This document shows, piece by piece, positions 6,465 through 55,643 of a DNA stretch of 64,000 nucleotides; the first letter of the stretch is position 1, and each line of letters begins with the position of its first letter. The notes beneath the pieces were generated by a model that saw nothing but the letters and a program-made list of their open reading frames with translations, ran no database searches and had not been told where the DNA came from. The stretch is from Paramacrobiotus metropolitanus (taxonomy: Eukaryota > Tardigrada > Eutardigrada > Parachela > Macrobiotidae), in assembly GCF_019649055.1 (NCBI RefSeq), contig NW_026570271.1:1-64000 (forward strand), written 5' to 3'. A program made the position numbers and the translations under genes.

Positions 6465-9400
6465 CTAATTTCTTGCAACTGCGTGAGTGATGGAGCTGTT
6501 TAAATTATTCCGCGACTGGTACGCAATAATGTGTCCGCCCATCTTCATAGGTTGCCGACTTTTGAATGAACATCCCGTGCAGCGCAGAAACACGTGCTTC
6601 GCCAATAGAAGACGATGAACCTGAACAGTCAAATGTGACAAGAACTGATCCTCATCGTCCGACGACACACGGCAAATACGGCATTGATATTTCGCCGAGA
6701 CGATCTCGGTTTCAGAGTCTGGCGATAGCGGTGATTGTGGAGCAGCGTTTCTTGCGGATATGTTCAGGACGGTGGCAGCCGTATTTGCAGACTCCTCTCG
6801 TTCGGTGCCTGGGCTAGGGGAAATGTTTTCCGGTGGATCCGGTTCCACGTGATCTTCATCAAGCGCAACGTTTTGTTGGTAGTGCCGCATGCCAAAATAA
6901 TCATCGAAGGAGCACCAACGATTCTCAGCAAACCCAGAAGCAGTAATTTCTATAAAAAAGTCGCTTTCCTAAATAATACTCAACCAATATACCTTCGGCC
7001 AAGCAAAGATTTTGATTTACTGTAAGTTAATTTTAATCTTTATATAATAATCGCGTAAGCCTTAATCTTTGTTGAGTTCGCCAGCTCGATACGCTGAACC
7101 AAACTGTCATGACTATGGATCATTTGATAGCCCATAACGTGTAGATTAGCCATCACAAATTAGTTTTTGAAGAAAATGATACGTTTGAAAGAAAACGTTC
7201 AAAAACTTTAACATATAAAGTCTATGGGAAAAGCTGAGAACCCACCACTGCTAAACCGACCACCCCACCACTGTCTCAACAGCTTAAACACGCTTTTTTG
7301 ACAATTCCTCTGCAGTTGATTAGAACTTGGAACTTTGCGTTCCATAACAGATTATCCCCCGCCGTACTTGCTGTTTGTACATTAAACATTTCTCATCCAA
7401 GTTAAACACTTGAAAAAAAAACTGTACAAACATGGCCGAGAAGATTCTGGGACTGCTGGACGGCTCGCAAGTCTGTTTTCAAGTACTACCGGACCTCCGT
7501 GGTGGTTTTCGCGTAGTTAAACTGTAAAGTGCCTTCAGGGGCGGGCGCGGTTGGCTTTCTTGCTGAACTGCCGGTGATTATTTGTAAAAGCCGATTTTTC
7601 GAAATTTGCTGCTTTATGATGTAGTTTTTACTAGAAAAAGCTGTTCAAAAAAGGCAAGTGGGCAACTTGGCATTTATAGGGTTTAGCATTGAAGAACAGC
7701 AAGCTCTTTGCACCGCTTGGTATGTGGTGTTCGAGACCGTGTGATACATGAAATATTAATGCAAATCCACCACAGTGGAGCTTCGAGCTAACAATAAGGT
7801 GAAATGCTTCATTATTAAGTAACAAAAGGACTTCTGGAAAACTGAAAATGATTTTTTAAAAAATTTGTTATACAGATAGCGCTTTAGAAGGCGGAGCCTT
7901 CTGCGACGCCGAGCTGTGGCGCAAGCGAAGCTCGAATAGCAGCAAGCAAGCACGAAAATTCCCGGTTTTGAAAAAGCGGAGAAAGAAACACAACGAAATG
8001 CTTATGTCTTCATATAATAAAAGTGGTTTGACTGTGCTCTGTGGTCAAAGCAACAGCAAAAGAGGTTACTATCACTCTTTCAGTTCACTGATTGTTAAAT
8101 TGGGATATAAAGGCCGGCAGTGGTGCTGGTGGTCAAACTGGGGGATAGTTAGTAAAGTCGGGTAAAAAAAAGTAGTAAAGTCGGGTCGGCTATTAAGTCG
8201 GGTAAAAAATAGATTCAAAAATTGCAGAATGACACAAACAGGAAGAGACAACAGGTTCTAAAAATAACTTATGTAGTCTCTAAGCACCAGTTGCACGAAT
8301 TTTAACTGATTGGTGACTGATCTGGAAATAAAGAATTAGATCGGAAGCTGTTGACAAAAATTGTCTGCTTTTGGGGAAGAATTTTACATTTCAAGTCTGA
8401 TGTCATCTCTGCAGTCAAAGGGAAATGCAAATTTTCCCGGAAATTGTATCGTCAACTGTGGACTTAGGTATATAAGAGAATTCTAAGCTTCGTTCATTAA
8501 ACCTACCCGTAGCCGTAGGTCCTGTAATTGCGTGCAGTTATGAGTTTTAATTTTTGCACTGGATTATGATTTGTCCATCGTATTATTTATTCCGCGCAAT
8601 TTGCGCGGGGTCTGCTAGTGGTCACATAAAGGCTCATTTTAATCACTCGCTAGAAGTACGTATTTTGCAGTTTGCCTAATTATCCTAATTATAATCGGAA
8701 GAACCGATTGACCTTTAATTCAAAAAGATACGCACCTGTTTGACTCTCGCTGGTGCGGCAGTTGTCGATGTTCGTTACTTCCCCAGGTTCTGTTGATCCA
8801 TTTACAGAGTGTAGAGAAGGAACCTTCGCAGTGCAACTGCCATTGGGCGATGGACCTGTGTCGCTTTGTTTACCTTCACCGCTGAGTGAAACCTCGTTTT
8901 CTAAAGTTAAAATCGGTTGCTGTTGTTGGTCCTCAGATGGGATCCGCTTTAGTCGGGGAGATGTTGGGACCGGTGTCGCAGTGATGGGATCTACGGCTGC
9001 TTCCGCTCTTCTCAGCTCGATATCATCGGCGCCTACAGCTTCCAAAAGGGGTAATGCAACTAGAGTTGCGCAAATTCCTGATTTATCTATCGCAGTCAAT
9101 GGTTGTGCCTAAAGACAAGAATTTCGGAATCAGGGCAAACGGCCACAAGATTTGTTGTTTATTTCGCGTTAGATCTAGTAGTACTGCAGCTCTGCGGCAC
9201 CCAACAAATCAATAAATAGCCGTCACACTGGACTGTCTTACATCAACCTGTTGAACAACCACCGGTGATTTGTGTGATTCTTGGCTTCTGATGCCTCGAT
9301 CCACGGAGTCCCTGTTCGCATCGCGCAATGGGGTGTCTTTGAACATGAAGCAGGCATCGATGTGCTGCTTTACTGATGCACAGGAATATCCCTGTTTGCG

Positions 9401-12400
9401 CAGTCCCAAAATAATGTACTGCAGCTTGTGGTACCGGCTGTGGTCGATGTTCGTAACGAGTGGAAGCGCTTGCATGATCGGGTTTACCAAATGTTGAGAC
9501 GTATTAGCGGTCCGTTCAATGGACGTTCCACTGTCCGCTGTGTTATGTTGATCCTGTGGAGCGATCCTGCTATCGTACGATAGCAGCCGCTGTGTATCCT
9601 CTGTGCGTTCGCTCAGAGCCTGTTGGCTGTGCGCAGACGCGACTGAAATAGCGGGACAAAATTTAGGCGAAACTCGGGTAGCCTTTTTACATGAACTATA
9701 TATTTGCTCATTGTTCAATATACATAATAACGCGTTATTGTTCAATAACGCGAAAACATTTCTACCGAGTGCCTACAGCAAAACTAATGTTTGTTCTCTG
9801 TTATAATAATAAGTAAATTTTAAAGAATCTAGCTGAAGCTTTTCGATATCTCTGCATACCGGTAAATACCATGCAGATAAAAAAGGAATGGTGTTCCTTA
9901 TCCCACCAAAAAAAATAAGTACGAAGTATAACTACGTAAAGCTGATTGTTCTCTGCAGAACGATATCCTTCTGTTGTTCATAATGATATGATCTCATAAA
10001 ATCTTGGTTTGGAAACATTATGTATGATGTAGTAATCTAATCGATATACCCGTGAATGTTTATTCGTATACGTACTATGCAGGCACAAACAAAATATGTA
10101 TTTTGCGTGATTTTCAATCAATTTCTTGTTTATCTAACGGCTGCAAAGATGGGAAAAACTATAGTTACCCGTGTTGTGCAACGCACTGGGTTCCGGCGCC
10201 TGTGCTGTTTCACTGCGACACACCGGCGGACTTGAAGTCGGTGAAGCATGTGGAGTATTTCCAGATATATAATCTCCGTGGTGTTCAATCGTGGGTGCGC
10301 GTCTGCGTTTAGTTGCTGGACCGCTCGGTGATTTGACAGTGTTGGCTGGCTGGGACACCGAAGTGCCGGATGTGGTTGGAGATCTTGGGCCGGACTTGAG
10401 GATAGTGCGGGCACGTTCCGTCGTTAAAGCCGCTATCTTGGCTGAATTGGCTAGCTTATACTTTTCACCATAATCATCGTCACAGGAACTGCGTAGTAGC
10501 TCTCCACGACCGCTGCCTTCGGAAAAATTGTGGTCGTCTGTTTCTGAAATTTGCTAACAAGCATTTGAGATGTGTTGTATTTAGTAATTGCCTAATAAAT
10601 CACAACTTATAAGTTAAGCTCTCATCACTTAACTCTCCTGACAACTGCACATGGTAGCGTAACTTGTGGTAGAACCCAGAACTCTGTTTACTAGGTAACT
10701 AAGATAAATCGCACAACTAATATAGCGTAACTCCCAGCTCCGTATATGCGGTGGAATTCATAAATATGTCACACTCACATCCGGTGACGCTATGCTTATT
10801 GCTTACGAGGGTATATGCTGTAACGCCGTTTTGAAGTCCATTGTATCTTAACGCTGACGGCGGTTGAGTTTTTCATATCTGCCGAGGTCTGGTTAGTATC
10901 CCAGCTATTGCGAATCACCACCGAGCAGTTTACTTCCACTCAATGAATTCGCGCAACGTACATTATATTGCAGTATGTTTTACCAACATAAAAAGATTTC
11001 GTTTTCCCACTTACTTTTGGCGGAATCCCGATTCGCGACACCTTCTTTGACGTCATGTGCAACCAGTTGCATACCAGATGTACCTTCTCCGTGGTGGAAA
11101 TCCGTTGGAGTGTGTCCGCAGCTAGAACAGTTGCAGTGTCTCCGTTTGCAGTCAGAATTTCGGGGCCTCCTCGCCATTAACCGAGCTGACTTTCGGCGCT
11201 CAGCGACAACTCCGCGCCCACAGGTATCGCTACCTCCCAATCGATGCGCCGACCGACTTTGATCCAGCCCATGTGCCTCCACTCCGCGATGCTCGGTAGT
11301 TTCGGCATCGTGCAGACGATGTACGTTCGGTGTGGTGAGTTCGCGGGCAGCATCTACAGGTAAAATACCAACAACGGCATTGTTGTTCGAGTGCTCTAGG
11401 GTGATGTTGTCGGACCGATGCCCTGCTCGATCGTCGGCTTCAGCTGCATCTTGGTTACCGGCAGGTGGATGCATATTCGCTGTAGCCACCGTGACCTCGG
11501 GATTTGTACCAGTATGATCGACAATAAGACTACAGGATTGCTTGGGTATAGGGTCTGGATTATACGGTTGTATGGCTTGTGACGGCGACATTCGATACTC
11601 AGGTGCTGCCTTGTTACCATCGTTCTCCTTAACCCGCAGTGCCTGAACGATACGTTCCTCATCGTCACTATGAGAATTCAGTCCGAGTGTAACTTCCATG
11701 AGCGGCCGCATTTCCGGTGTGCCGGATTTCTGATCGGCATGTCTAAGAATTTCTGCTATCATGCCTTGACATATTTTAAGCTGTTTTGATATGGATCGAA
11801 ATGATAATCCTTCAGCACGAAGTTGCAGAACAGCCGCACGCCTCTGCTCGTATTTTTGCCGGTTGCGCTCCTGAAATGTTCTCCTATTTTGCTTCAACAA
11901 CATTCTGAGAGTATCTCGGTGTACGCCGAACTTTTCAGCCATGTACGCCATAGTGCGACCTTCTTCAAAGCATTTAAGTATCGCTTCTTTCTTCTTCTGA
12001 CTGACAGAAATTCTATCCCTTGCGGCAAAATGAAGTCCGGCGTACTGAAGTGCAGCGCCTGTGGCATCAGCTGCTACGTTAGCCTCGCGTGCAATATCAG
12101 CTTTTGAGTAACCGCGATGGAACAACTGCATTATCGTATGTTTTTGCTCTTTAGTAAGGCCATTCAGTCGCCGCAGTTGATTGACGGTAGTCGTGCTTAC
12201 GTTGAACTGCTTCGCAATTTCTGCTGGATTGTGCTCTCCTTGGCATGCAAGCTGCTGGATCTCTTGTTTCTGCTCCTCAGTCAGCTGGGTTCGACAAAGT
12301 CGTTCTTTCTCGTATAGAAAGTTTCTTAGTGAAGTAAGCTTGATTCCGGCGCGCTTCGCGATTTGCTGATGCGGGGAGCCAGCTTTGCATAGTTCACGTA

Positions 12401-12443
12401 TTAGCTGTTTTTTCTCTTCGTCCAGTTCTTTTTTCTTTGGCAT
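6465..12443 (-). CDS. G1: multi-HTH plus zinc-finger protein, five exons
   Basis: Cleanest member of the array and the reference for the others. Exons on the minus strand: E1 11015-12443, E2 10169-10543, E3 9242-9642, E4 8736-9108, E5 6465-6949. Donors begin GTAAGT, GTAACT, GTAAGA, GTGCGT and acceptors end AG. The total is 3063 nt, a 1020-aa protein. E1 carries five HTH repeats at about residues 9-46, 54-93, 96-135, 147-187 and 196-236, then a long polar linker and a basic tract (RKSARLMARR). E3 carries a sixth HTH near 672-705. E5 (from residue 860) holds the motif SFDDYFG and a C2H2 finger (C-x2-C-x12-H-x5-H, from 949), then C-x2-C-x12-H (from 983). The start is the first ATG after a conserved TAG|GACA acceptor, so a non-coding 5' exon is likely. 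Nuclear DNA binding is inferred; targets are unknown. I know no named family with this order of domains. Confidence 0.8.
6950..8735 (-). other. G1 intron 4 with a possible Helitron end
   Basis: 1.8-kb intron between E4 and E5 of G1, much longer than the same intron in unit E (about 185 bp at 14745-14929). Most of the excess is therefore inserted sequence. No coding domain recognised. A Helitron-like 3' terminus lies at 8592-8619. Confidence 0.6.
8592..8619 (+). mobile_element. Putative Helitron 3' terminus
   Basis: A GC-rich hairpin (CCGCGCAA, 1-nt loop, TTGCGCGG) at 8592-8608 is followed after 6 nt by CTAG and then T. Hairpin plus CTRR before a target T is the classical Helitron 3' end. The 5' terminus (TC) and any Rep/helicase sequence were not found, so this would be a non-autonomous copy with an undefined left border. 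Confidence 0.4.
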
Positions 12444-12450
12444 GGTTGTC

Positions 12451-12584
12451 CTACTCTATTTTTTAACATACGAACACTGACATACATACGTACAGATATG
12501 GTACACAGTAAGCCAGAACTGGCTGTAAAAAATATTCAGCTTAACAAAAATTTGTTGTATACATACTCGCAATTATCACTTACC
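12451..12584 (-). other. Predicted intron and 5' leader donor of G1
   Basis: A conserved acceptor (TAG|GACA, exon from 12450) lies 7 bp before the G1 ATG. A matching donor ACTG|GTAAGT sits at 12584/12583, giving a 133-bp intron in the 5' UTR. Homologous leader donors occur at 19257 (relic before unit E) and 33298 (G2). The sequence does not define the leader's start or promoter. Confidence 0.5.
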
Positions 12585-14271: not shown

Positions 14272-17200
14272 CTAATTCCTTGCAACAGAGTGAGTAATGC
14301 CGGTGTTTAAAGGATTTCGTGACTGATGCGTAATTATATGTTCTCCCATCTTCATAGGTTGCCGACTTTTGAATGCGCACCCCGTGCAGCGCAGAAACAC
14401 GTGCTTCGCCAGTAGAAGACGATGCTGTTGAGCAGCCAAATGCGATAGGAACTGATCCTCATCATCCCACGACACACGGCATATACGGCATTGAAATCTT
14501 GCCGTGGCGGTATCGATTTCGGTGTCCGGCAACAGAAGTAGTTGTGGAGCAGCGTTTCCTGTGGGTAGGTTCGGGATGGTGGCAACTGTCGCTGGGTCTT
14601 CTCGTTTGGTGTCTGAGCTAGGCGAAATGGTTTCCGGTGCTACGAGATCATCCTCACGCTCAACGTTTCGCTGGTAATGCCGCATGCCAAAATAATCATC
14701 GAAGGAACGCCACCGATTATACGCGCACGCCGCAATCAAAATATCTGCAAAATAGTCTTTCGTTCTATATAAAATACAACTAATATACCGTTGGCGAAAC
14801 TTCGATTTTATTTAATTTAAATGGTAACATAATGGCTCATTATAATCAGCCATTAGACGTATTTGCAGCTTACCTAATTATTCTGATTAAGGAAGAACCG
14901 ATTCGCCTTTGATTCAAAAATTCACTCACCTGTTTGGCACTCGCCGGTGCGGCAGTTGTCGATGTTCGTTATTTCCCCATTTTCTGCTGATATATTTACA
15001 GTGTGTGGAGAATCAACCTCCGCAGTCCAGTTGGCATCGAACGGTGAACCTGTTTCGTCCTGCTTTTCTCCACCACTGAGTGAAACCTGCTTTTCTGAAG
15101 CTGAATCCGGGTGTAGCAGCTGCTGGGCCTCAGAGGGCATTCGCTCAGGTCGGGGCGATTGTGGGCGAGATGTCGGAATGATGAGATCTACGGCTGCTTC
15201 CGCTCTCCACTGCTCGATATCACCGGCATCTTCGGCTTCCACTAGAGATACCGCAATTACCGGAGTTGCGCTTTTGCCTGCATCCCTTACTGCGGTCGAG
15301 GGTTGAACCTAAAAACAGAAGGAAAATTTCGAAATAAAGATAAGACTGCCATCAGATTGTCTTCGTTAGCAAATGCGCAGCCAAGAGCAGCTGAAGCAAC
15401 ATTTTATACTCCCCTGTTTTCCTGGGGGAAGTAATAAATTCGCAGCCTTGCGGTACCATAAAAACTAAATTTATAACTACACGTCACTCTGGACTAACTT
15501 ACATCTAGCTGCTGCCCAACCACCGACGGTTCATTGCTACTGATGTCCCGATCTGTGGCGTCGAAGCTGGCATCGCGCAATGGAGTGTTTTTGGACCGGA
15601 AGCAGTCATAAATGTGCTGTTTTACTGATGCATAAGAATATCCCTTTCTGCGAAGTTTCCAGACAACGGACTGCAGCTTGTGGTACTGTATGTCTTCGTG
15701 GTTTGTGAGGAGCTGGAGTGATTGCACGACCGGATTTGACAAAGCGTGAGACGTGTTAAGGGTCGGTTCGAAGGACGATCCGCTGTCCGCTACGTTATGT
15801 TGATCCTGTGGAGCGATGCTATATGTTTCGTGTGCTAGCGGCTGCTGGGTATCCTTTCTACCGATGGTCAGAATTTGTTGGCTGTGTACAGCAGTGACTA
15901 AAACAGGGAGAAAAAGTATGAACAACAGCAGCGGCATTTATTATCGGCGAGAGTCTACGAAGTACATAAGTATCATAGGTTCCACATTAGAAGACGTGAT
16001 AATTTTTTACTTCTCTCAGTTTGCGTGAAAATAATGATTATCACACACCAATTTTTCAAAAGTTTTTTTAATGTGGAACAGCGCACGGAATACCATGTCT
16101 CTGGTACCTGAATCGATATCGAAAATGCCGGAAGTGCACAAAAACATCGACATATGCAGATATCTCGTGAGTGCCTATTTGTGGACTAAGCAGGTAACCT
16201 TTACTACATTCGTATAATGGATTTGGCATGATCTTAAATCAATTTTGGGTTTCTCTAGCTGCATTGATGTGCCAAGTAATAAAATATCTCATACCGCTGT
16301 GGATATCCGTGCTGGGAAATGCGCTCAGCTCACGAAGTCCCGTCGTCTCTGTGGTTTCCGTACGAAGCACCGGCGGAGGTGAATCTGGTGAGGCATGACG
16401 TGAAGTGCGCCCCACTATCAAATCTCCGTGGTATGCAACCGTAGTTGCGCGTTTGCGTTTAGATGTTGGACCCTTCCGACGTTTGGTAGTCTTGGCTAGC
16501 TGGGACGTCGAAGTACTGAATGTTGTTTGAGCAGCACATAGCTGACGTCGAGGGCCGGACATGAGGATACTGCGGGCACGCTCCGTCGTGAGGCCCGCTG
16601 TCTTGGCTAGAGTGGCTAGATCATACTTTCCCCCGAAAAAATCATCATAGGAATTGCGCTGAAGCTCGCCGCCGATTTCGGGAAAATCATGACTATCTGT
16701 TTCTAAAATTTGCAGACAAGTTGCTGAGAGCTGGTGGTCTGGTCAATGCATTATAAATCAAATCGGAGCAGCAGGCAGTTACTTTTGCCAAAATACAAAA
16801 AAAAACGCCCTTGCTACGCATGCTAGCGCAACTTGCTGCTAGAACTGACTACTTTTCATTTTTTCGCACGAATCGCGTAAACTACATACTACGCGTAAAC
16901 TACATACTATGTGGTAGCGTAACTCGCAAGCTCGTGATAAATCTTAAATCTGGCGGTTGATGAATTTTCCATAACCGCCCGTCTGTTGGTCTCAGGCGTA
17001 CGTAAGCCGCTGCACATTAGAAACTGCAGTCGCTCTCGATATATTGTTTTATTTCGTTACAAAATAAAAACGCATCCTTATCCTACGTACCAGTTTGGCT
17101 TTTTCCGGAACACCGATTCACTCCTTCTTGGACGTCACGTGTAACCAGTGGCACACTAGCTGTACCTTCCTTATGGTGGAAATCCGTGGACGTGTTTTCA

Positions 17201-18032
17201 GAAACAGAACTGTCGCAACGTCTCCCTTTGCAGCCGGAGTTTTGGGACACCGTTGCCATTAACCGAGCATGATCGAAAGTGACAAAGGATTGTCCGGGAT
17301 TGGTGTCTGGAGGATCTGGTGGCAGGGTCTCCAACCGAGGCAACTTTCGGCGCTCATGTGCCACTGTATTACCACCGTCCTTGTTAACCCGTTTGGTCTG
17401 AAAGACATGTTCCTGATCGGGGCTATGCGATTTCAGTCCGGGTGTAGCACACTTGAGTTGATGCGCCTCCGGTGTGCTGGCTTCCTGGTCGGTATTTTCA
17501 AGAATGTGTTTTATCGTATAGAAACCCAATTTCAGTTGTTTTGCTATCGAAATAATTGATAATCCTTCAGCACGAAGTTTCAGAACAGTCGCACGCCTCT
17601 GCTCGTATTTCTGCCGGTTGCGCTCCGGAAATGTCTTTCCATTCTGCTGCATCAACACTTGCAGGGTAGCTTGCGATACGCCGAACTTTTCGGTGATGTA
17701 CGCCACACCGTAACCTTCTTCAAAGCAGTTCAGTATCCCTTCTTTCTGCTTCTGACTGACAGGAAGTCGATCCCGCGAGGGAAAACTGAGTCCGGCGGGC
17801 TGAATTACAGCGTCTGTCGCATCAGCTGCTACGTTAACCTCGCGTATAACGTCCGGTCTTGAGTATCCGCGATGGAATAATTGCATGATTGGTTTCTTCT
17901 GCTCTTCAGCAGGGCCAGTCATTCCCCGCATTCTCTTGATACGGTCTTCGAAGCCAGTGTCGTGTAGTTCACAAAATAGCTGTCTTTTTTCCTCGTCAGT
18001 ATCTACCGAGTAGGTTGTTTGGTATGGTTGTC
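14272..18032 (-). CDS. Unit E (3' half of G2), E1-E5 without a start codon
   Basis: E1 17091-18032, E2 16295-16702, E3 15503-15897, E4 14930-15308, E5 14272-14744. At the position of the G1 start codon (GGACAACCATG) this copy reads GGACAACCATA, and the frame is shifted, but the frame entered from the AG acceptor at 18033 in phase 1 is open to the donor at 17090. One HTH is lost: HTH1 is cut after TGFE and runs directly into HTH3, without a stop. Four repeats or parts remain. E5 has the motif SFDDYFG, finger 1 (C-x2-C-x12-H-x5-H) and a full finger 2 ending H-x3-H, the only copy in the window keeping the last histidine. It reads best as the downstream half of a fused gene. Confidence 0.65.
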
Positions 18033-34261: not shown

Positions 34262-34286
34262 TGAAACTGGCTTGCGCTAATAAAAA

Positions 34287-35102: not shown

Positions 35103-35149
35103 TAGAGCTCCAACGCATTCCCAGTGGTTAAAAATATGTGCGACGTAAT

Positions 35150-35870: not shown

Positions 35871-35942
35871 CAGTAATATAATAATGTTTCTTGCACACCA
35901 TAATAAGATTAAAAGTAGCGCATTTCTTTATGAACAGGAGTT

Positions 35943-35994
35943 ACAGGACCATAATATTACTAAACTAATTTGTTTAGTAATATTATGACAGGAC
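35943..35994. repeat. 38-bp palindrome flanked by 7-bp direct repeats
   Basis: A perfect 16-bp stem (CATAATATTACTAAAC) with 6-nt loop at 35950-35987 is bordered exactly by ACAGGAC on each side (35943-35949, 35988-35994). Exact borders resemble a target-site duplication around a tiny palindromic insertion. Confidence 0.8.
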
Positions 35995-42900: not shown

Positions 42901-43468
42901 CGAAATGTTCTTCCATTCTGTCGCAGCAACATTTCAAGGGTGGCTTCTGATATACTGAACTTCTCTATGATGTACCGCCCACTGTGACCTTCTTCAAAGC
43001 AGTGAAGTATGTCTTCGTTCTGCTTCAGACTGATAGGAAATCTATCCCGCGCGGAAAAACTCATTTTCCTTTGTTGAATTAGAGCGTCTACGGCATCAGC
43101 TGCAACGTTAACATTGCGTATAATGTCCGCTCTTGAGTAACCGCGATAGAATAGCTGCATGATTGTTTTCTTTTGCTCTTCAGAAAGACCGGCCATTCGA
43201 CTCACGGTCGACTTGCTAATGTTGAACTTCTTCGCAATTTTTGCTGCACTGTAACCTTTTTGGCGAATAAGGTGCACGATTTCTTTATTCTGCTCCTCCG
43301 TCAGCTTAGTTTGACATGTTAATTTTTCCATTTTGAGAAGGTAGTTCAGAGAAACAAAAGTGATACCCAAGCGCTCCGCGATTTGATGCCGAGAGCAGCC
43401 GGCGTTACGTAGTTCGCAGAATAGCCGTTTTTTGTCCTTACTCATTCTTGTGGATTGGAGGGGGTGTC
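36944..43468 (-). CDS. Unit C (3' half of G3) with a duplicated E3-E4 cassette
   Basis: E1 42380-43468 has five HTH repeats (first KKRLFCELRNAGCSRHQIA) and the tract CRRSARVKAMKHR; it contains an ATG at 43445 (MSKDKKRL). Then E3 (40900-41495), E4 (40203-40575), a second E3 (39556-40109), a second E4 (37605-37977) and E5 (36944-37443). The two E4 copies are both 373 nt and start VQPVTAVCDRD / VQTATAICDRD; the E3 copies share the HTH (EFQSAAVRLREQGHSYEAIL / EFRAVVAQLREQGFSYEAVR). E5 has the motif SFDDYFG, finger 1 C-x2-C-x12-H-x5-H, and finger 2 with Tyr instead of the last His. E2 is absent. Confidence 0.75.
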
Positions 43469-46400
43469 CTACTTCAAACAAAGTGTTTATTACAGATTTT
43501 CAGCCCACTCTCCGCCTTTTTCAGAAAAGCGATTATCGAAAACATTATGGAAGTCGAGGACGGAAGTGCACAAACAAAAACGAAAGCTGCAACTAGAAAC
43601 TGCAACTACAGCAGTATCCCTTAAATGTGACGTCTGCCCAGTTCTTGTTTTGGAAATGATTGTTTACCATATTTCGCGTGTTTTTCTGGTTACAGGACAA
43701 AAATCTGTTAAACAAAATCGATACAAAAGAAAATGTATCTAAGAGGTGCCGTTCTGGGTTGCTCGTTATGATAGTGCGTTGCAGTCACGAAAAGCTTGTT
43801 AGACCTCTGAACTAGAGTTTTGCATTTAAATGTTCTGGCGCAAGCCAAAGTTTTGACCGACGTGAACAGTGAATTATCACATGGGAACTTACTACTTCAC
43901 TAATCCCCAGTGTAATTACTCTAGTCTTTTTAAGATTAAATCTTTAACTGCATGCAGCACGGAGCACATTATCTTAGTGAAACATATCGACTTCACCTCA
44001 AAGTACACGTACCTTTCTGGATTTCGCTGGTGCAGCATGCGTCAATTTGCTCAACATCCCCGGTTTTTACTGATTCAGTATCGGCAATTGCGGGATGAAA
44101 TTCTGCATCATAGTTGCAATCGGGAGCCGAACTAGAGCTGGGCTGTTGACTTTCGGCGCTAAGCGGATGCTTGTTTGTTGGCGTCAAATCAGACTGTTCC
44201 TGTCCCCCATTTGGAATCTGCTCTGGCTGCGGCGTTGCTAGCAACAGTGACACAGTGCTGGTATCTGCTGCTGTGTCCGAGCTCAGTGGCTGGGTACTGA
44301 CAGCATTTTCAGCTTGGAACAGGCATAACGCGGTTTCCGCTGCGACGAGTGTATCACGGTCGCATACTGCTGTCGTAGAATGAACCTTCCAAATATGGCG
44401 AATGTGTTAAAAACCACATAATACATATAGTCAGAAAAAAATTACAATTCCGGCTTAACGGTAGATTTCAACAAAGCCTTGGATCGCAATGATTGCACGA
44501 CCGATAAGAGCTGAAGCAACCTTCATACTGGATCTCTTTTGCTACCGTGTATAGATATGTACAGCTCATTTGCATCAGACAATTCTTTGCATAGTTAATC
44601 TTTGCTACAATTTTGCCCCTGCCCAACATTACAGATTTTAAAAATTGCGAACCCTGAAAAATGAAATATTTTTCATACTTAGAGCCATTTTTTTTTGCAT
44701 GGGATCTCTTTTGCTAATATATGCAATGACACGCATGTGTCACGATGTCTACACATACTTCGCTTCTACTCACGTTCCGACCGCTTACAGATTACACCTT
44801 CACGTTCCGTCCACCCATGATTTCAGATTACCCGCATGGGCCCATATAAAAACTAGTTTATAATACTATAAAGTATAAACGTACTTAATTTGTAACCAGT
44901 AGAAGCGTTTATTTCCAAAACGAATGCAACAAGGAATAACAAATAAATTTAACAGAAAACAAAGTTACAAAAATTTAGAGATCAACGAATCCATCCAAAT
45001 TTGCTATATAAAAACAAGGAATTATCACCAATTAAAATCACCAATTATCACCAAATTAATTAATAATAACCAATTCCTTAATTAGTTTTGATTTACTAGA
45101 ATTATCACCGTAAATTAATCACCGTAAAATAAAAATTTAACCCAGCATGTGAAAGACACTCGTCACTTAATTTGCGAACTGTTGGATTTCTTCTGGCGGC
45201 GTTTTTTGTTATCCGATTTCTCTTTCAGTGCGTCCAAAAATGCACTTTCAGTTGCAATAGCTCCCATCTGAGTGTCCAGTCGCGCATCTTTATTATACCG
45301 TCTTTTCGCTGGACGCTCAACGTTCAACAGCTCTTTGTATTCTTTTGCTGCTGTCTCAGCCGACTGCAAGGGAACGAAGCCATCCAAAACGCGCTTGGAA
45401 AATTCCATAATCTGGTTGATCTGGCTTTCAGTGTAGGCATGAATATTACGAAAAACCTGACGAATTTCCACAAAGTTTTCAGCATAAATTACACTTGCAG
45501 GGAGACTGGTTACAGGTTGGGTTTCTGGTGCGACTCCCGGAAAATCTTTACACACAACAGCTGGATCGTAAGGATAAATGCCCGCAGCAGCAAAACCCGA
45601 TACTATGTTCCTGTCCATATTAAATGTTTTCCAGTTATTCATCAGCTCAAAAGCAAAGTTCTGCTTGGACACCTGATAATAAAACCAATAATAATTTATA
45701 TAAAATGAACAAATTTATGAAAAACAAACTTTTCACATACCCCAACGGATGCGACTGACAAATTCTTTTCGCGCAGCACATTTTTCCATGCACGCTTTAC
45801 AGGACCGAACACCTTGAGATCTAGTGGCTGAGTCTTGCTTGTTTGTCCCGCCGGAAAAATCACAACGCGAATATTTTTTTCGGACTGAACGCACTTCAGC
45901 AGAAACTCTTCGTTGTACACGTGGGAGCTGTGCCCGTCCAGCATCACCAGATTCTACACAAAATACAAAATTAAATTATCAAAAAATTTTATGAATATTT
46001 TCATATGAATTATTCACTGAATTTTTAATTTTTGGCTTACCTTTTCAGCAGTCATATTAGGGATCACTTCTTTCTCGAAGTACTCCAGGAAAACATCATT
46101 ATCCATGATTCCGGACCGGTTCACACCCAACCAACAACGATCCTCTGTGCCAGCAATTCGCGATGTCAAATGCATTTTACCATCGTACAAAATCAACGGT
46201 CGAAGAATAAACCCTGCTGCATTTCCTCCGGCCAGAACTGTAATAAGTTCGCGATCATTCCCATCATAATAAGACAGGATATTCTTAGTCCCCTTCCGAG
46301 TAAAAACAAAATCCACTTTCTCCGCGGTAGAAAAGGCACTCTCGTCTAAGTTCCAAATCCCGTTTGCATCGTCCAGCCATCCGTCGATGTGCAGTTCACT

Positions 46401-49400
46401 CAGCAGCGTCACCCATCCCTGGCAAGTCTCCGCGGTCCACTCTCTACACTTTTTCCTGTTAACCCCATGGGTTACGCGATATGAAATCTCGGGATTTCTC
46501 TTTAGGAATCGATCTAACCAGGCGTGGCTAAACGTCGCTCCCATGCCTTTCTGCAGCGCGATGTTAACCACGAGCCTTCTCAAAAACGACTTGTTCATAG
46601 GCACGCCAATATCCGCGCATTTCAGTAGAAAATTAGCCAGGTACGTTTCTTCAGCATCGGTGAACTTTCTGCTCCAAGAACCTCTCGTCTGCGCAGGCTT
46701 CCCTTGAACTTTATCTCGAAGCGTGGTTTTTGGAATCCTGTAAAGTTTCGCTGCAGCACGCAAAGAGAACGTCCCATTACGAACCTGTTGCACGGCCAGA
46801 TAAAGACGATTCTCCCGGTCCATAATTCCATCAGTCACAAAAGTAGCATTAGCTGGCGCCGCGCTTTCAAACAGATTTGTACACACGATAACAAATAAAG
46901 AAACAAAACTGCAAAATGATAAGCAGTTTGTGAGAAACGAACAATAGAAGTACTAAAATACTTTGGTCTTGGAGAATTAAATTGAACGTGCTGATGAAAA
47001 ACAAACTGCACTTTGCAGTCAGCTGTTAATAACCACGTAGCCGCGCACTACAGGGGCTACAAATGCAATCGGGTGGACGGAACGCTAAAGTGTAATCTGT
47101 AAGCGGTCGGAACGTGAGTAGAAGCGAAGTATAGTTTATAGTTAATTTCCATCGTATATACTTTAATTTTTCCCCTATTTCGGTCACTTTAATTAAATGG
47201 TTTCATAATTTCCTCACCGGTCACACCACCGAAACGCGCGGCGTGCTATATGAACTGCTGATATTTGCTCGACTTTCCTTTTGGCTCGTTTTTTCGCTAC
47301 TTTGTGTAACCCGAACAAATCGAATATTCGTTCAAAACAAATTTAATACGGTATTTCAAAAGCTACTTTGTATGTTGAATCATGAATGCATGGAGGATCC
47401 GTCCTTCCTCCATTGCACCGGTCCATGTCCTGTTATGCCGGTTGTGTTTTTATAATCATGTATTGACGTTAATGCGTTAAAATGGAAGTTTTACTATGAA
47501 ACGTAGCCATTTCTATGAGTTTAATTTTGCTAGGGACTTTTGATACCTGGGGAGAGAAATATTAAATCATGCACCGGTAATTAAAGTGAGCGAAATATGA
47601 AACAAATCAAAGTATATTTGATAATTAATTATTACTACAGTTTCTCTCCTGCTCAACATTATCTATTTTAAAAATTCGGCACCATAAGAAAACAACATTT
47701 TTATAAAATGGGGTAACTTACATCAGACGGCCGACCAGTCAAGGATGTTTCTTTGTGGCTGCCTTGGATCTTTTCTTCGGTGTCTCCGTTGGCATCGTGA
47801 AGTGAGAGAGCGTCGGGAAGGAAAGAACCTTCAATATGCTGCCGTATTGCTTTATACGACCATCCCTCTTCGCGCAGTTGTAGAAGAACGGCCTGAAATT
47901 CGTAGAACTCAGTTTCTTCCCGGCCCGCATCCATTTCCTGTTCTTGGATGATCGGGTTTGTCAATAGGGTGGGTGGCTCGAATATCGACACAAAAAACGG
48001 CTCACTGCATGTTTCAGTGCTGTTGCTATGTTGACTGTTTGGAGAAACTAGAAGGGTGCTTCGCGTATCTCCATTGGGTGATGGCGATCGCTGCTTTTCC
48101 GGTATTTGTGTAATGTGACGGGCGAACGTATTGGCCGCTGGCTGGCCCACGGCGTCCGCCGATGGTTCCTCTGTAACGGTCACAGCACGCTGACGTCCAG
48201 ACCAAATGATCAAATCTGGCGCACATTCACACGGAGACGCCGAATCAGCACGGCTGTTTTCTTCGTCTTGCTGAGGTGCATCCTCATCTTCCGCGACTAA
48301 AATGGACAGAAGAGAATCAGGTACAATTCAGCTAACATGTTTACAGACTTACAGAGTACATAAAACGACTATTCAGCAGCAAGTGCATTAAGTAATTACG
48401 CGAAATACTAGTAAGGCGTGCTTTAGGACAGTAATCTGTTGCGAAACGATTAAACAAACTGCGATATACCGTACATAGGCTACATAGTAACAATCTGAGC
48501 GTTTTACGGCGGTTGCTTCAAACATTCACGGAAAGGTTCTTGAAAGAACTGACGTGTACGGGCGTACCGACCGCCCACATCGTACTACTTTACTACTTAT
48601 ACTGCCCCTGCTCTGCGATCCTACTTATACTGCCCCTGCTCTGCGATCTTTATTACTTCAGCTACTCGAGTCATGACCCCGTTTCCGAGTCGCGTCTTCT
48701 CAGAAGTCCCCAGCAGAGAACTTTGACCGCGACTTAACATTTCGTCGTGACCGTGACTTAACCGAGCGGCTCTACCTTTTGGTCTCATGTACGTTGTGAC
48801 CTCAGGTTTTGGTTCGTCCACGTGCTATGCTGTCGTAGTGTATAGGCTAGCTAGTTTATCCCTATTGTTCTTCGGTACCTGTGAGTACGTAAAGCGAGGC
48901 ATCTGCGTATGCCGAGTGTATATAAGCGCAGCGGTGCCCAGAGTAACATCAAGTGTTGAATAATTCCAACAAACTAGAGATTTGTTCTCGATGTGATTAA
49001 CTTCACGGTTTGCTCTGGTTCACATTTTCCAATGAGGATTCGGCTATCAGACCTCTTGGCAAATGTGACCTCGGCTTTCAGATTCGGCTATCAACGTCTT
49101 TTACTTTATACACGACAGAACATCGAGCGGTACTGGGACCGCGCCTGCAGTCTGTAGCGAGATACGATACGGTTAAATCTGAGCCGAGGTCATAGTCAGA
49201 ATCAGCACAATACAGAGAATGCTTTTATTGCATTCTGCATAAGAGCAGTTGGTTATTTTACGTACCAGTGTAGCTCTTCTCGTAATCCGTGTTTGTTGAT
49301 GCTTGAAGGATGTCATTCCCAACTGTTTTATCTATTTCCTCAGTGTTGTGGGCGGATTCATGAATCGCCGTTGTGGCTGCTTCGCCGTCGTCACGCAGCG

Positions 49401-50364
49401 AGGTATTAGCAAAACTGGAACAATCGACATATCGGCGTTTACTTCTGGTAACGCCATGCTGCTTGATCTTCAGCCGAGCCGACCGTCGACACCCTTCCCT
49501 TGTGTCACTTTTGTCGTCTTCATCAACTTTCAACGTTTGTCCTTTGCGGAGCTTTGCTTTGCGGTGCTTTGCAATCGGATTGTCTTCGGTTCTCACAGAT
49601 TCCAGTAGGCATTCTTCGGCTGACTCTGTGTTGTTTAAAGGACGCTCTTCCGGTTTAGTCGATTCCTGTTTGGACATTTTCCGTATTTTTATTAGCGTCG
49701 GCACGCTCACTTGAAGCTGCTTTGCTATGGCACTCCATGACCATCCTGCAGCTCGCAGTTTGCGAGCAGCAACTCGCGTTTGCTTGTGATTTCGTTGGAT
49801 CCGTTCCCGAAATGCTTCCCCATTCTGCCGCAGTAACAATTCGAGGGTGGCTGGTGACAAACCGAACTTCTCCCTGATGTGCGGTTCGCTGTGTCCTTCT
49901 TCAAAACAGCGAAGTATCTCTTCTTTCGTCTTCGGAGGGATGAGTGACGGTCCATTCCGCGCAGCAAAACTCTTTCCATTTGTTTGAATTACAGCTTCTA
50001 CGACATCCGCTGCTACATTAACCTGGTTCATAATATCCGCTTTTGACAAGCCCCGACGGAATAGTTGGAGGATTGTCTTGCATTGTTCTTCAGTAAGGTC
50101 CATCAGCTTCTGCACTCGCTGCACGGTCGACTTGCCAATATTGAATTTTTTCGCGATTTCTGCTAAACTGTACTCTTTTTGGCGAATAAGTTGTACAATC
50201 TCTTTACTCTGCTCCTCAGTCAGCTTCGTTCGACAAGTTAGTTTTTCCCTTTTGAGATGGCTGCTCAGCGACTCAAAAGTGATACCCAGGCGTTCCGCGA
50301 TTTGCTGCCGAGTGGATCCAGCTTTACGTAGTTCGTGAAAAAGTCGCTTTTGATCCTTATCCAT
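36944..50364 (-). CDS. G3: fused multi-HTH/zinc-finger gene, nine exons
   Basis: Predicted by joining units B and C: 49266-50364 (E1), 47722-48296 (E3), 44013-44385 (E4), 42380-43468 (second E1), 40900-41495 (E3), 40203-40575 (E4), 39556-40109 (E3 copy), 37605-37977 (E4 copy), 36944-37443 (E5). The sum is 5532 nt, 1843 aa. Unit B has no zinc-finger exon: the intron sequence 3' of its E4 breaks off at about 43840, just where E5 should begin. The acceptor before unit C's E1 (GAAGTAG|GACACC) is phase 1 and leads in frame into its own ATG, and the exon is 1089 nt (divisible by 3). The product would carry two five-HTH arrays, three E3 HTHs and one finger pair. No E2 is present. The alternative is an independent unit C gene starting at 43445 (1153 aa) and a truncated unit B. 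Confidence 0.55.
37978..39555. other. Intron between the E3 and E4 copies of unit C
   Basis: 1.6 kb against 324 bp for the equivalent E3-E4 intron between 40576 and 40899, so largely inserted DNA. It contains a retroelement RT C-terminus relic (38690-38885). Confidence 0.6.
38690..38885 (-). pseudogene. Relic of a reverse-transcriptase C-terminus
   Basis: An open stretch of about 65 codons reads ...IEIYGPYGDGTKKLVETVG... and ...FKQRISMQIQRGNAICVMGT. The pattern F-xx-AIE-xGPxG ... RIS-x-IQRGNA-xx-xMGT is typical of the extreme C-terminus of a widespread group of metazoan non-LTR RT proteins. The rest of the element is not seen. Related relics lie at 55801-56235, 56500-56640 and 57390-57450. 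Confidence 0.55.
41496..42379. other. Unit C first intron, with short repeats
   Basis: No gene. 41652-41690 has ATTGATTGATTG/TTTATTGAGTAG, a sequence resembling a retroelement 3' UTR end, and 41731-41784 holds 2.2 copies of a 25-bp repeat (CTTGCTGGTCAAGGTAGCGA + GCTAC) that is partly self-complementary. Confidence 0.6.
43469..44012 (-). other. Junction between units B and C
   Basis: 43500-43700 resembles 50400-50600 (upstream side of unit B), so it is a former promoter/leader of unit C. 43835-43990 resembles the E4-E5 intron of unit C (37480-37600; GCGCAAGCCAAAGTTTTGAC). The two meet where unit B's E5 should be, so a deletion removed E5 and the intergenic spacer. Confidence 0.6.
44013..50364 (-). 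CDS. Unit B (5' half of G3), E1-E3-E4
   Basis: E1 49266-50364: start MDKDQKRLFHELRKAG at 50364, just after the conserved GTAG|GTCACC acceptor. It has five HTH repeats and a GCRRSARLKIKQHG tract. E3 47722-48296 has the sixth HTH (EFQAVLLQLREEGWSYKAIR). E4 44013-44385 ends ACCTSEIQK at a phase-1 donor GTACGT. E2 and E5 are absent. Its E3-E4 intron hosts the pogo-like transposon. Confidence 0.75.
44758..44816. repeat. Left TIR of the pogo-like element
   Basis: 59 bp, paired with 47071-47129; preceded by TA at 44756-44757. Confidence 0.9.
45163..46823 (-). CDS. Pogo/Tigger/Jerky-type transposase, three exons
   Basis: Exons 46041-46823, 45741-45953 and 45163-45672; introns of 87 and 68 bp (GTAAGC...TGTAG, GTATGT...TCAG), both phase 0. 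Predicted 501 aa. The start chosen is MDRENRLYLAVQQ at 46823. Order: Psq-type HTH (about 1-45, TFSLRAAAKLYRIPKTTLRD), CENP-B-type HTH (about 55-125), then the DDE domain of the Tc1/mariner superfamily. The catalytic Asp positions are visible as NLDESAFS (end of exon 1 region), VMLDGHSSH (exon 2) and QPLDLKVFGPVKRAW (exon 2). A Lys/Arg tail (KKRRQKKS) may be a nuclear signal. It cuts and pastes the element by binding the TIRs and integrating at TA. No damage seen. Confidence 0.88.
47071..47129. repeat. Right TIR of the pogo-like element
   Basis: Inverted copy of 44758-44816, followed by TA at 47130-47131. Confidence 0.9.
47132..47721. other. Unit B intron right of the pogo-like element
   Basis: Nothing recognised; AT-rich intron sequence. 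An open frame of 70 codons (47243-47455, +) shows no domain and runs antisense to the host gene. Confidence 0.5.
48297..49265. other. Unit B first intron
   Basis: No coding features. 48593-48648 is an exact 28-bp tandem duplication (CTACTTATACTGCCCCTGCT + CTGCGATC). Confidence 0.6.
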
Positions 50365-52139: not shown

Positions 52140-55100
52140 TTAATCCGCTGCAATTGAGTGAATAATGCCATTGCGCAGGGCATTCCGCGACTGATACGTA
52201 ATAATGTGTTGGCCGATTTTCATGGGGCGCCGACTTCTGAAAGTGCACGCGGTGCAACGCAGAAATACATCCTTTGCTAGTAGAAAACGATGCTCCTTCG
52301 CTGCCAAATGCGACAAAAACAGATCTGCATCGTCCCAATACACGCGGCATAAATGACATTGATATCTTGCCGTGATGGTGTTGGTATCGGTGTTGGTTTC
52401 GGTGTTCGGCAATAATGACGCTTGTCTAGCGGCATTGTCTGTGGAACCGTTCTGGAAATCACCTGCAGCCTCATCAGGTTCTGTGCTTCGGTCGGATGCA
52501 AAGTCTTCTGGGGCATCCGACAACATAAAATTATCCTTTGTGCCGCTGTTCCGCTGATAACTTTGCATACCAAAGTAATCATCGAGGGAACGCCAATGGT
52601 TTCTCGCCCACGTCAAAGCATGAATATCTGTGAATTATTCTTTAATTATCCGGAATTCAACGTGAGTGACGATAATATCGAAGAGTTTCCGGATATATTG
52701 TCGGAATACACATATAAACGTACAGTAATTCCGACTAGTCGGAATACTCATATAACAGATCTTGAACCGCTTTAATTGTTTAACATGATTCAGTCGTGAT
52801 GTAATCTTATTTTTATCCTGAAGGAACGCATTCGCTAACCTTAATTTGTAATTTGACATACCTTTTTGCGGTCCGCTGTCTATGGTGCCGCAGTCGTGGG
52901 TGTGCAGAATTTCCACCGTTTGTACCAACCCATTCTCGGGAGACGTACGATAACTTTTTGCATTAAAGGCACAGCTACTGCCATTGAGCGATGGACTTCT
53001 GCTGCATTGTTTACTTCCGGTGCTGGGTGAAGGTTCGTTTTCTAACCATATAACGAGCCGCTGGCGCTCCTGACTTGACATCCCTTCCGGTCGTGGCGAA
53101 ACATGGCATTGGGGCGGAGTACCTCGATTTACAGGTGTATCCAGTCTGTTCTGCTCGGTTTCAGCAGCATCGTCAGCTCCACTCTGGCTTTGTGCGTTTA
53201 TCGATGCCTGGCATGCGTCAGGGCCACATAATCCAGTCGAATGTAAAGCCTAAAAATATAGGAAGCCTTTCAGAGCCTGCCGCTACAGTAAAGGTAAGAC
53301 GGCCATAAAGTTTTGTACAAAATGCTTAAGCATCTTGAGGGCAAAGATGAAAACAGAAGTTTATCTTCAATCTATATTCATTGCTGTTTCAAAAGGCGGA
53401 CTTTTTCAAGCCCCCAAAAAGGTTACCATTGCAGTAAAAGACTTTACATCCAGTTGACAAATCGATTTGCTCTTACGTGGCTGTTTTCTCGTTCTTCGGC
53501 ATCTCCACAAGGGCTTCGTAGCCGCCTGGCGTTGGAGATGAAGCAAGCATCGATCTGCTGCTTTATTGATTCATAAGAGCATCCATGTCTGCACAGTTGC
53601 ACAACGATGGATTGTAATTTGTGGTACCGATTGTAGCCAGGCTCCGTAAATATGTCCCGCGCCTCCATGATCAGCTGGTCCGGCATAACGGTGGGCGCAT
53701 TCGCGGCCGGTACAGAAGGCGACTCACCGTGCGTTTCTTTATTTTGATGCTCTGAATTGTTGCTATGAGCTTCTTTTTCGGGCGACAGCGAGTGTTGAAT
53801 ATCCAGTACACTTATAGTGGGCACAGGAACGACATTGAGCTCGCTTACAGCATCCGCTGAACATTTCTCTGTAGAGGTTGTACGCTGATGTCCAACGCGG
53901 AGGCTTACTAAATCCGACCCGGATAAACCAAAATAACACTGCAAGGGTGCTGAATAATCGAGGAGCACGGAACCATTGTTGCCGGTTTCCTGTCTGCTTT
54001 CTACTCCCCGCTGCACAGCATCCGCCTTTTCAGTGACGGGATCCAGGAGTAAAACAATTTTACAAGGCTCGCAAAAAAATAATTACTATTATAATCATGC
54101 AAACGTCATCGTCATAATTCCGTGTATAGTCAGAGCGACTGTGTTATGTTATGAATGCAAATATTCGAAGTACGATAAACTGGAAGGACATGATAATAAA
54201 TTCAACTGTCTTGATACTCAGTCGTTACAAATAAGAGTACGAAACTGACAGTTTTTGAAATGCAAAATATGTATTCGAAGTACGAGAAACTAAATAAGTA
54301 ATTGTCCTGATACTCAGTAACTCAGGCCGTTACAACGTGGACTTGCGCCCGAAATTGTGTTGAGTAATATTATGAGAGTCACTCGTTACTCACGTACCAG
54401 ACCGGCTTTTCTCGGACTTCCGAGTTTCCTGTTCTCCTTCGCCATAATGTGCTGACACATGCATTTTAGTCGAATCATCTTCGTCGTGCGAATCCGTAGC
54501 GGTGTGGCCGGAGCCAGAATAATTCCAGCGGCTCCGTTTGCAGCCGGAAGGGCTACGTCTGGCAGCTAATAACCGATCCAAACGTCGGCACTCTTGGACG
54601 TAATCATGACGACCACTTTCAGTAATTCTCGGTCGCTGTGCGCTTCGACCATGATCTAGAACATTAGACCCCTCGATTCCGCAGACCTGGGTAGCGGCTC
54701 CACTATGCGTAGGATGCTCAATCGAAGTGGTCGGTTCTTGTACGACATCTTCCCATAAGCTAATTCCAAATGCAGCGTTCGTTTGCGGCAGCTTTGCGAT
54801 CTCATTGACAGAGCATGGAAGTGCATAAGTATGAAAATGCGGGTCTGTTTCTATGACTGGTACGCGCTCAGCTGGCCTGATCGATTCTTGACTGGCATTT
54901 TCCAGTATACGCGTCACCGTTTTCCCGGTCACAATCCTCGTAAGTTGTTTCTTTTTGGTACTTACAGACCATCCCGCTGCTTGAAATTTCAGTACATCAG
55001 TTCGATCCTGTTGGCACTTCTGCCGGTAGCGATCCCAGAATGATTTTCCATTCTGATGCAGCAATATTTTGAGGCTGTTTCTCGAAAGGCCGAACTTTTT

Positions 55101-55643
55101 CATAATGTACAACTCACTGTGACCTTCTTCGAAGCATTCAGTTATTTGTTGTTTCTGCTCCTGACTGACAGGAATTCCATCCCGCGCGAGAAAACTGTGT
55201 CCGGCTCGGCGGAGTACAGCGTCTACGGTACGCCCATTTAACTTAACCTCCCGCATAATATCGGACCTTGAGTGGCCGCTATCGAACAGCTGGAAGATGG
55301 TTTTGTTTTGCTCTTCCGTAAGGCTGGCTGTTTGAAGGATTCGATTTACAGTCTTCACGTGCAGGTTGAACTGCTTCGCGATTTCTGTACGACAGGACTT
55401 ATTTTGTCGTGCTAGCTGTATGATCTCCTTCCTCTGCTCTACACTCAATACTGTTCGTCGTCCAGTTAATTTTTCCTCTTTGAAAACCTTTTTCACAGTA
55501 GACAGAGTGGTTCCCAAGCGGTGCGCAATTTCCGGTTGTGTGTAGCCTTTGTTGTGTAGTTCACAAATCAACCGACGTTCATTATCATAAATTTCTTCTG
55601 GCTGGATCATTCGTGCTGTGGCTAGCTGATCTTGCTCGACCAT
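52140..55643 (-). CDS. G4: multi-HTH plus zinc-finger protein, four exons
   Basis: Compact, most divergent member. E1 54398-55643, E3 53477-54003, E4 52862-53249, E5 52140-52627; 2649 nt, 882 aa. The start is MVEQDQLATARM at 55643, after the conserved GTAG|GAGACACC acceptor (an in-frame ATG at 55607 is also possible). E1 has five HTH repeats (first ERRLICELHNKGYTQPEIAH) and the basic tract ECRRLDRLLAARR-xxx-GCKRSR. E3 has the sixth HTH. E5 has SLDDYFG, finger 1 C-x2-C-x12-H-x5-H, and finger 2 with the last His replaced by Tyr. Two splice sites have moved: the ancestral E3 acceptor position (54036/54037) reads CG instead of AG, so the nearest phase-compatible acceptor is GGGGAG|TAGAAAG at 54003; the E3 donor is an earlier GTAAGA (53476). 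E2 is absent. Confidence 0.7.

Follow-up and report, generated by a model that had tools for sequence, protein, structure and literature searches.

The first 64,000 bases of contig C51 (NW_026570271.1; 1,033,953 bases) of the tardigrade Paramacrobiotus metropolitanus, here called the window (bases 1–64000; GC content 43.3%), carry on their minus strand a tandem array of multi-exon genes whose first exon codes for a run of helix-turn-helix (HTH) units. We give about even chances to the reading that a giant tandem array of host genes, coding for proteins that bind DNA sequence-specifically, begins in the window. As judged from sequence, the best reading of the proteins is a KRAB-ZFP-like family of DNA readers that would be built from HTH repeats, and by analogy transposons are plausibly their targets. 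This reading is carried by the array itself, the predicted HTH fold, the consistency of splicing, purifying selection, and the constancy of the C-terminus and, in one subfamily only, by a concentration of amino-acid change at presumed DNA-facing positions. A first-pass annotation of the same DNA had drawn attention to the array; its observation was partly confirmed and its interpretation partly supported.

Structure of the genes and of the array

The modules were found by six-frame reading and tblastn inside the window, and the blocks were also compared at the DNA level. The results showed that five exon modules, E1–E5, recur on the minus strand as the first-pass annotation had proposed, with these of the motifs it had named: the RRSARL-type tract in E1, YDD-GGKY in E2, the HTH-like unit in E3, and DDYFG together with cysteines and histidines in E5. 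Instead of the seven equal blocks described there, we observed between 6.5 and 55.6 kb six blocks with an HTH-array E1, the seventh being an exon remnant (24.8–26.1 kb).

Two Pfam scans were made, one with the HTH parts of five E1 exons (best 25 matches), E2, E3, E4, and two E5 exons (E ≤ 1), and one with four E1 tails, the E1 of block E, one further copy each of E2, E3, and E5, and two E4 exons (E ≤ 0.1). The five full E1 arrays scored above the cut-offs of HTH_23, HTH_7, HTH_38, CENP-B_N, and other models. In block F, HTH_23 reached 62.3 bits (cut-off 24.6), HTH_38 52.1 bits (cut-off 27), and CENP-B_N 54.3 bits (cut-off 21.2); CENP-B_N reached 35.6 bits in block B, and other HTH models score similarly. 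The shortened E1 of block E was still recognized by HTH_23 (29.1 bits against 24.6), and its CENP-B_N score of 15.7 bits was under the cut-off. As far as scanned, the E1 tails, E2, E3, and E4 belong to no Pfam family, and no catalytic or transposase/DDE domain was listed for the window exons scanned, in agreement with what had been stated from the letters alone.

AlphaFold2 models of the six window E1 proteins contained five three-helix units, mostly with a predicted local distance difference test score (pLDDT) of 80–92 (mean 78.9), whereas the predicted template modelling score of 0.44 means that the arrangement of the units is not fixed. The profile scores over the cut-offs and the five predicted three-helix units place E1 in the trihelical HTH superfamily. 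Thus, the structure prediction proposed as a check in the first-pass annotation agreed with the Pfam scores that the repeats form HTHs, with only three recognisable units in block E. The number of units given there, 5–13, was too high for the window, where E1 has at most five and E3 adds a single HTH-like unit, which the hidden Markov model (HMM) called in only two window open reading frames (ORFs). In 72 frames from 60 fetched stretches and the window, the HMM detected 272 HTH units, and ten units in one exon were found outside the window in three genes on contigs C44, C151, and C204. The ten-HTH genes L041 (C44) and L057/L099 (C151) are near-duplicates, with halves that are 0.88 and 0.79 identical, and could be segmental duplicates or allelic contigs. 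All 41 arrays compared had a positive net charge (median +18); the recognition helix of unit 3 has little basic charge in the window members.

E5 contains a C2H2-like finger, C-x2-C-x12-H-x5-H, and a second site, C-x2-C-x12-H-x15-H. In an alignment of 42 of the 47 E5 loci (4 from the window and 38 fetched, two of the 44 matched rows being dropped), the four ligand columns of the first site were kept in 41, 42, 42, and 41 of 42 rows, the C-x2-C-x12-H columns of the second in 42, 42, and 41, and its last histidine in 40 of 40. Of the 44 matched frames, 39 fit the ligand pattern if some slack in spacing is allowed. In 39 of 42 rows a tyrosine stands where the second site would have its usual fourth C2H2 ligand, and the last histidine, at x15, is the candidate for that role. 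Of the two C2H2-like fingers proposed earlier, the first is nearly invariant and C2H2-like in spacing, and the second has an unusual histidine spacing. The zf-C2H2_4 model gave 21.7 and 21.1 bits on E5, under its cut-off of 27, and a PDB sequence search with E5 gave no match under E 0.12. The terminal module is better conserved than the HTH arrays (median identity 0.56 versus 0.40).

Module content varies between the blocks: A, B, and C are without E2, the E3–E4 pair is doubled in C, and the window holds four copies of E5, blocks B and D having none there. The exon ends lie at homologous places, with splice sites that have kept their position and phase. The 3' end of E1 reads ..TG/GTACG. (the slash marking the junction) in five of six blocks, in phase 1; E2 runs from phase 1 to phase 1, E3 from 1 to 0, and E4 from 0 to 1, and E5 starts in phase 1. 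Since these phases match, loss or doubling of E2 or of the E3–E4 pair leaves the frame intact, and such changes are what the blocks show. The joined frames are open throughout in blocks F (1020 codons), E (881), C (870, as E1-E3-E4-E5), and A (850–882, by choice of E3 acceptor), and an open joined frame was also obtained in D over E1–E4 and in B over E1–E3; gene models and joined frames are predictions. There appears to be a relationship between E2 and the part of E5 that ends in the DDYFG region: at two distal genes, matches to E5 were overlapped by the E2 query.

Genome-wide loci were counted in 169.8 Mb (533 contigs) as merged matches from single-protein queries, with thresholds of E ≤ 1e-5 for E1 and E < 1e-12 for the E5 finger, and the counts are lower bounds. 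There were at least 73 E1 loci on 18 contigs, 44 of them on C51 between 11.7 and 558 kb (36 on the minus strand), and at least 47 E5 finger loci, 35 of them on C51 (33 on the minus strand); the E2 and E3 queries gave at least 45 and 34 matches, respectively. E1 matches outside the window were as strong as 6.6e-82, and chance is therefore excluded. Most loci belong to a single array of 550 kb on the contig of the window, in which the genes are arranged mainly head to tail. For 34 of the 73 E1 loci an E5 was found within 15 kb downstream, and some of the genome matches contain stop codons. The region C51:300–558 kb holds a diverged subfamily, in which many E1 exons have two or three HMM-detectable HTHs and E5 is well kept. 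Seven E1 loci lie on contig C97, which has no E5 match; one of them, L100 (C97:200300–208900), has E1, E2, and E3 without the Cys/His module, and its frame at locus positions 3367–3708 has an acidic, hydrophobic end resembling an activation domain by eye.

When 31 of the 35 E5 copies on C51 were compared, the immediate neighbour was the closest relative for 15, against an expectation of 2.0 from shuffling (never more than 11 in 2000 shuffles), and identity on C51 fell with distance (Spearman −0.40; 0 of 1000 permutations). Thus, the array has grown by local duplication. Together with the expansion of the family and the divergence of E1, this bears out the earlier description of a fast-evolving family.

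Selection, amino-acid change, and possible function

The E1 arrays are under purifying selection, as the ratio of nonsynonymous to synonymous substitution rates (dN/dS) was 0.12–0.65 in 13 close paralogue pairs, the lowest value (0.12) coming from a pair with a near-saturated dS of 1.68. Between blocks D, E, and F, dN/dS was 0.55–0.65 for E1, 0.55–0.73 for E2, 0.64–0.70 for E3, and 0.68–0.86 for E4, and the one comparison available for E5 (E versus F) gave 0.39. The exons therefore behave as genes under loose constraint everywhere but at the C-terminus.

Helix 3 is the most variable part of the HTH unit: in the 41 segments in which four or more units were detected, its mean entropy was 2.25 bits, compared with 1.97 for the linkers, 1.70 for helix 1, and 1.61 for helix 2. 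Helix-3 positions 1, 2, 3, 6, and 7 were analyzed in the five-HTH subfamily with 16 disjoint sister pairs (identity 0.52–0.88). The results showed that the proportion of nonsynonymous differences (pN) was 0.32 at these positions and 0.18 in other columns, and that dN/dS was 0.84 (bootstrap 0.56–1.28) as compared with 0.38 (0.32–0.44) elsewhere. None of 5000 permutations among polar columns reached the observed excess, which was present in all five units and in 15 of the 16 pairs. In a sliding control, pN had its maximum at the predicted register (0.32), was 0.29 one residue on, and did not exceed 0.24 elsewhere. Amino-acid change in this subfamily is thus concentrated at the recognition-helix positions presumed to face DNA.

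Since a variable array is combined with a constant tail, local duplication, dead copies, and positive charge, the layout resembles that of the KRAB-ZFP and ZAD-ZNF families. The full protein would have five (up to ten) N-terminal trihelical HTHs and polar linkers that carry basic tracts of the RRSARL type. A sixth, HTH-like unit would often be present, and roughly half of the loci would add the strongly conserved C-terminal Cys/His module. We infer that DNA is actually bound, and the recognition helices may then lie along an extended stretch of it. As these helices diversify between duplicates, each gene would read a different site, the change of target probably occurring through helix 3, and the constant C-terminal module could provide a shared output, such as partner recruitment or dimerisation. 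Tandem duplication would supply new specificities and leave dead copies behind, and the likely purpose would be transposon silencing, as in KRAB-ZFPs or ZAD-ZNFs. Inserted transposons lie within the array, a LINE-type (long interspersed element) copy in block D and a pogo-type element in block B.

Several points weigh against this reading. In the distal subfamily, used as a held-out set (12 sequences of 29 frames, 6 pairs, 2 units), the helix-3 excess was weak (pN 0.27 versus 0.19; permutation p 0.07), also among polar columns (0.25 versus 0.23; p 0.38), and was thus not clearly reproduced. The dN/dS at the presumed DNA-facing sites is not above 1, a value compatible with relaxed constraint, and the choice of positions, based on general HTH geometry, was made when the entropy table had already been seen. 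The predicted fold of E5 is unusable (pLDDT 37), and at 39 of the 73 E1 loci no E5 follows within 15 kb, so the module is not universal. The binding of extended DNA targets, as proposed in the first-pass annotation, is consistent with the positive charge of every array and with the helix-3 change in one subfamily, a change not clearly seen in the second.

The proteins could also be ordinary transcription factors of stress, developmental, or sex-specific programmes, a diversified DNA-binding family not aimed at transposons, which we regard as possible but rather unlikely. The HTH fold, the helix-3 change, and the positive charge would serve such factors equally well, and the tail of L100 on C97 may be activator-like; the size of the array, the broken copies, and the diversified recognition helices would, however, be unusual for conserved regulators.

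Less probable is the explanation that the HTH arrays are scaffolds for protein interaction or RNA binding, with helix 3 diversifying for other partners. The precedent is the F-box A2 family of Caenorhabditis, a multicopy host family with a Tc1/mariner-like trihelical HTH, whose HTHs are reported to be protein-interaction platforms and not transcriptional (PMC12062965), so that an HTH need not mean DNA binding. F-box A2 proteins have one HTH with an F-box and an FTH domain, unlike the HTH arrays and Cys/His module found here. The small basic charge of the unit 3 recognition helix would suit a scaffold, whereas the positive net charge of all arrays and the fact that diversity peaks at the register thought to point towards DNA speak against one. 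It is very unlikely that the genes are decaying remnants of a transposon or of some mobile multicopy family that duplicated in place, their helix-3 excess reflecting relaxed constraint: the resemblance of the units to transposase/recombinase DNA-binding domains, the fragments, stops, and shortened blocks, and a helix-3 dN/dS not above 1 would fit, but the window exons scanned have no transposase domain, the array is mainly head-to-tail with introns and conserved splice sites, dN/dS is below 1 elsewhere, and the C-terminal ligands are nearly invariant over 42 copies.

Coordinates and neighbouring elements

Table 1. Predicted blocks, exons, and helices of the HTH-array family (window coordinates unless stated otherwise; helix positions are residues of E1)
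Feature	Position	Strand	Remarks
Block A	55.6–52.1 kb	−	E1-E3-E4-E5
A E1	54398–55643	−	four HTH units by HMM, fifth visible in alignment
A E3	53477–54003	−	longest of four frame-keeping alternative acceptors
A E4	52862–53249	−	
A E5	52140–52627	−	
Block B	50.4–44.0 kb	−	E1-E3-(pogo-type element)-E4
B E1	49266–50364	−	five HTH units
B E3	47722–48296	−	
B E4	43993–44487	−	open frame; pogo-type element between E3 and E4; no E5
Block C	43.4–36.9 kb	−	E1-E3-E4-E3-E4-E5
C E1	42380–43445	−	five HTH units
C E3, copy 1	40900–41495	−	
C E4, copy 1	40203–40653	−	
C E3, copy 2	39478–40119	−	open frame; exact exon ends not fixed
C E4, copy 2	37591–38115	−	open frame; exact exon ends not fixed
C E5	36944–37443	−	
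Block D	33.1–26.2 kb	−	E1-E2-(LINE)-E3-E4
D E1	31839–33120	−	five HTH units
D E2	31069–31479	−	
D E3	26794–27194	−	LINE-type ORF in preceding intron
D E4	26212–26578	−	no E5 after
Remnant block	24793–26097	−	no HTH array; E1 tail 26097–25795, E2 fragment 25227–24793
Block E	18.1–14.3 kb	−	E1 (three units only)-E2-E3-E4-E5
E E1	17091–18081	−	shortened: three recognisable HTH units; start codon not placed
E E2	16295–16702	−	
E E3	15503–15897	−	
E E4	14930–15308	−	
E E5	14272–14744	−	
Block F	12.4–6.5 kb	−	E1-E2-E3-E4-E5
F E1	11015–12443	−	five HTH units, RRSARL-type tract
F E2	10169–10543	−	YDD-GGKY-type motif
F E3	9242–9642	−	HTH-like
F E4	8736–9108	−	polar/acidic linker
F E5	6465–6949	−	DDYFG motif, Cys/His module, stop
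Distal genes with E2-query/E5 overlap	C51:551.7 kb and 556.7 kb		
E1 helices, units 1–2	9–20/25–32/36–50; 56–67/73–80/84–93		AlphaFold2
E1 helices, unit 3	98–109/114–120/125–134		AlphaFold2
E1 helices, units 4–5	149–160/165–172/176–185; 187–210/215–222/226–234		AlphaFold2

The E2–E3 intron of block D contains a LINE-type reverse transcriptase ORF (28016–29995, minus strand; open over 659 codons; RVT_1, E 1.7e-34). Between E3 and E4 of block B lies a pogo/Tigger-type DNA transposon (44755–47132, minus strand) whose 62-base inverted ends, 95% complementary, enclose an ORF that codes for DNA-binding domains of the HTH_psq and Tc5 types. At 20706–21977 (plus strand), identical 155-base direct repeats (20706–20860 and 21823–21977) surround a gag-like ORF (20935–21789), in which CCHC-type cysteine motifs were seen by eye and which gave no Pfam match at E ≤ 0.001; the whole looks like a very young gag-only long terminal repeat element. 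Just outside the array, 4059–5018 (plus strand) is a rhodopsin-type seven-transmembrane receptor ORF (7tm_1, E 7e-18). Short tandem repeats occur at 22438–22698 (87 bases, three copies) and 57753–57878 (63 bases, two copies). A search for lipocalins of the SAHS type gave two matches only, both resembling ordinary FABP exons.

Comparison with known systems

VIA-align searches with the E1 model aligned its units with Tc3, PAX, resolvase, and ParB-type HTHs at Z up to 6.8 (1u78, Z 6.8, root-mean-square deviation (rmsd) 14.9 over 91 residues; 1pdn, Z 6.7, rmsd 1.7 over 49), values below 8, which may reflect no more than a common arrangement. The alignments mostly cover single HTH units and in a few cases two or three at high rmsd. 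No whole-array match was among them (Z 5.7–6.8), an absence that proves nothing, and Foldseek with the array model gave nothing at E ≤ 0.001. Other helical arrays among solved structures matched only in part: the c-Myb complex 1h88 aligned over 124 residues (Z 6.0, rmsd 7.5), 8vd6 ('CAP REPEAT') was the best PDB sequence match to E1 (E 6.1e-9) and covered unit 1 only, and the TALE-like BurrH (4cj9) matched weakly (E 0.0037, 28 residues).

The PAX paired domain and the Tc3 transposase are similar in having tandem trihelical HTHs that align to the model units, but they have two units and E1 has five. The paired domain model (PF00292) stayed below its cut-off of 22 bits in block F (20.5 bits) and was not among the best 25 matches of the other four full arrays; a PAX assignment was rejected. 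A Tc1/mariner transposase, with two HTHs and a DDE domain, was likewise rejected, as there are five HTHs and no DDE domain was listed for the exons scanned.

The transcription factors derived from Pipsqueak, pogo, and CENP-B are animal HTH DNA-binding proteins with lineage-specific expansions, as described in PMC10027918. In this they resemble the present family, which differs in having five to ten units, no HTH_psq match in its arrays, and no DDE domain in the exons scanned. CENP-B_N is matched in the full arrays, and neither a DDE domain nor a remnant of one was seen in those exons. HTH_psq (PF05225) had 33 matches in the genome at E ≤ 0.001, and its sole match on C51 (46692–46814) lies within the pogo-type element of block B; a Pipsqueak origin of the arrays was rejected on this ground, and the Psq link made in the first-pass annotation was not borne out.

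Scans of genome and virus collections revealed no prokaryotic or viral relatives, and a prokaryotic or viral source of the family was set aside; as these scans started from short patterns, they are weak evidence of absence. We found no description of the family in the literature searched, which mostly excluded subscription papers, so that one may exist elsewhere. By title or abstract start, none of the papers listed on tandem or repeated HTHs or on tardigrade HTHs dealt with this family. The main text of the P. metropolitanus transcriptome paper contains no 'helix', 'zinc', or 'HTH', a C4 zinc-finger paper in the literature on this species concerns another zinc-finger class, the Hypsibius/Ramazzottius genome paper contains no 'zinc finger' or 'helix-turn', and nothing usable was found among the tardigrade piRNA papers listed.

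The large, expanding DNA-reader families of animals are, to our knowledge, built from zinc fingers or from single transposase-type domains. The present results suggest an expanding DNA-reader family, with no earlier description found, that is built from arrays of HTH repeats instead of zinc fingers. KRAB-ZFP and ZAD-ZNF clusters consist of tandem genes with a variable repeat array and a constant module, and they commonly serve to silence transposons. The family described here is like the KRAB-ZFPs of tetrapods and the ZAD-ZNFs of insects in its large tandem array, its repeated and diversifying putative DNA-binding array, and its one constant module. It is unlike them in that the repeat is an HTH and not a zinc finger and that a Cys/His module at the C-terminus takes the place of KRAB or ZAD as the constant part; Pfam detected neither a KRAB domain nor a C2H2 array in the window exons scanned. 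We propose, tentatively and with more doubt than confidence, that a tardigrade lineage independently evolved a counterpart of the KRAB-ZFPs, in which programmable arrays of five to ten HTHs that read extended DNA and a new C-terminal Cys/His effector, encoded by dozens of genes in a rapidly duplicating 550-kb cluster, are directed against transposons. If so, the family would show how a desiccation-tolerant animal group may handle transposons, its naturally modular HTH readers could serve for working out a recognition code, and HTH arrays whose recognition helices diversify would stand as a second way of meeting the same need.

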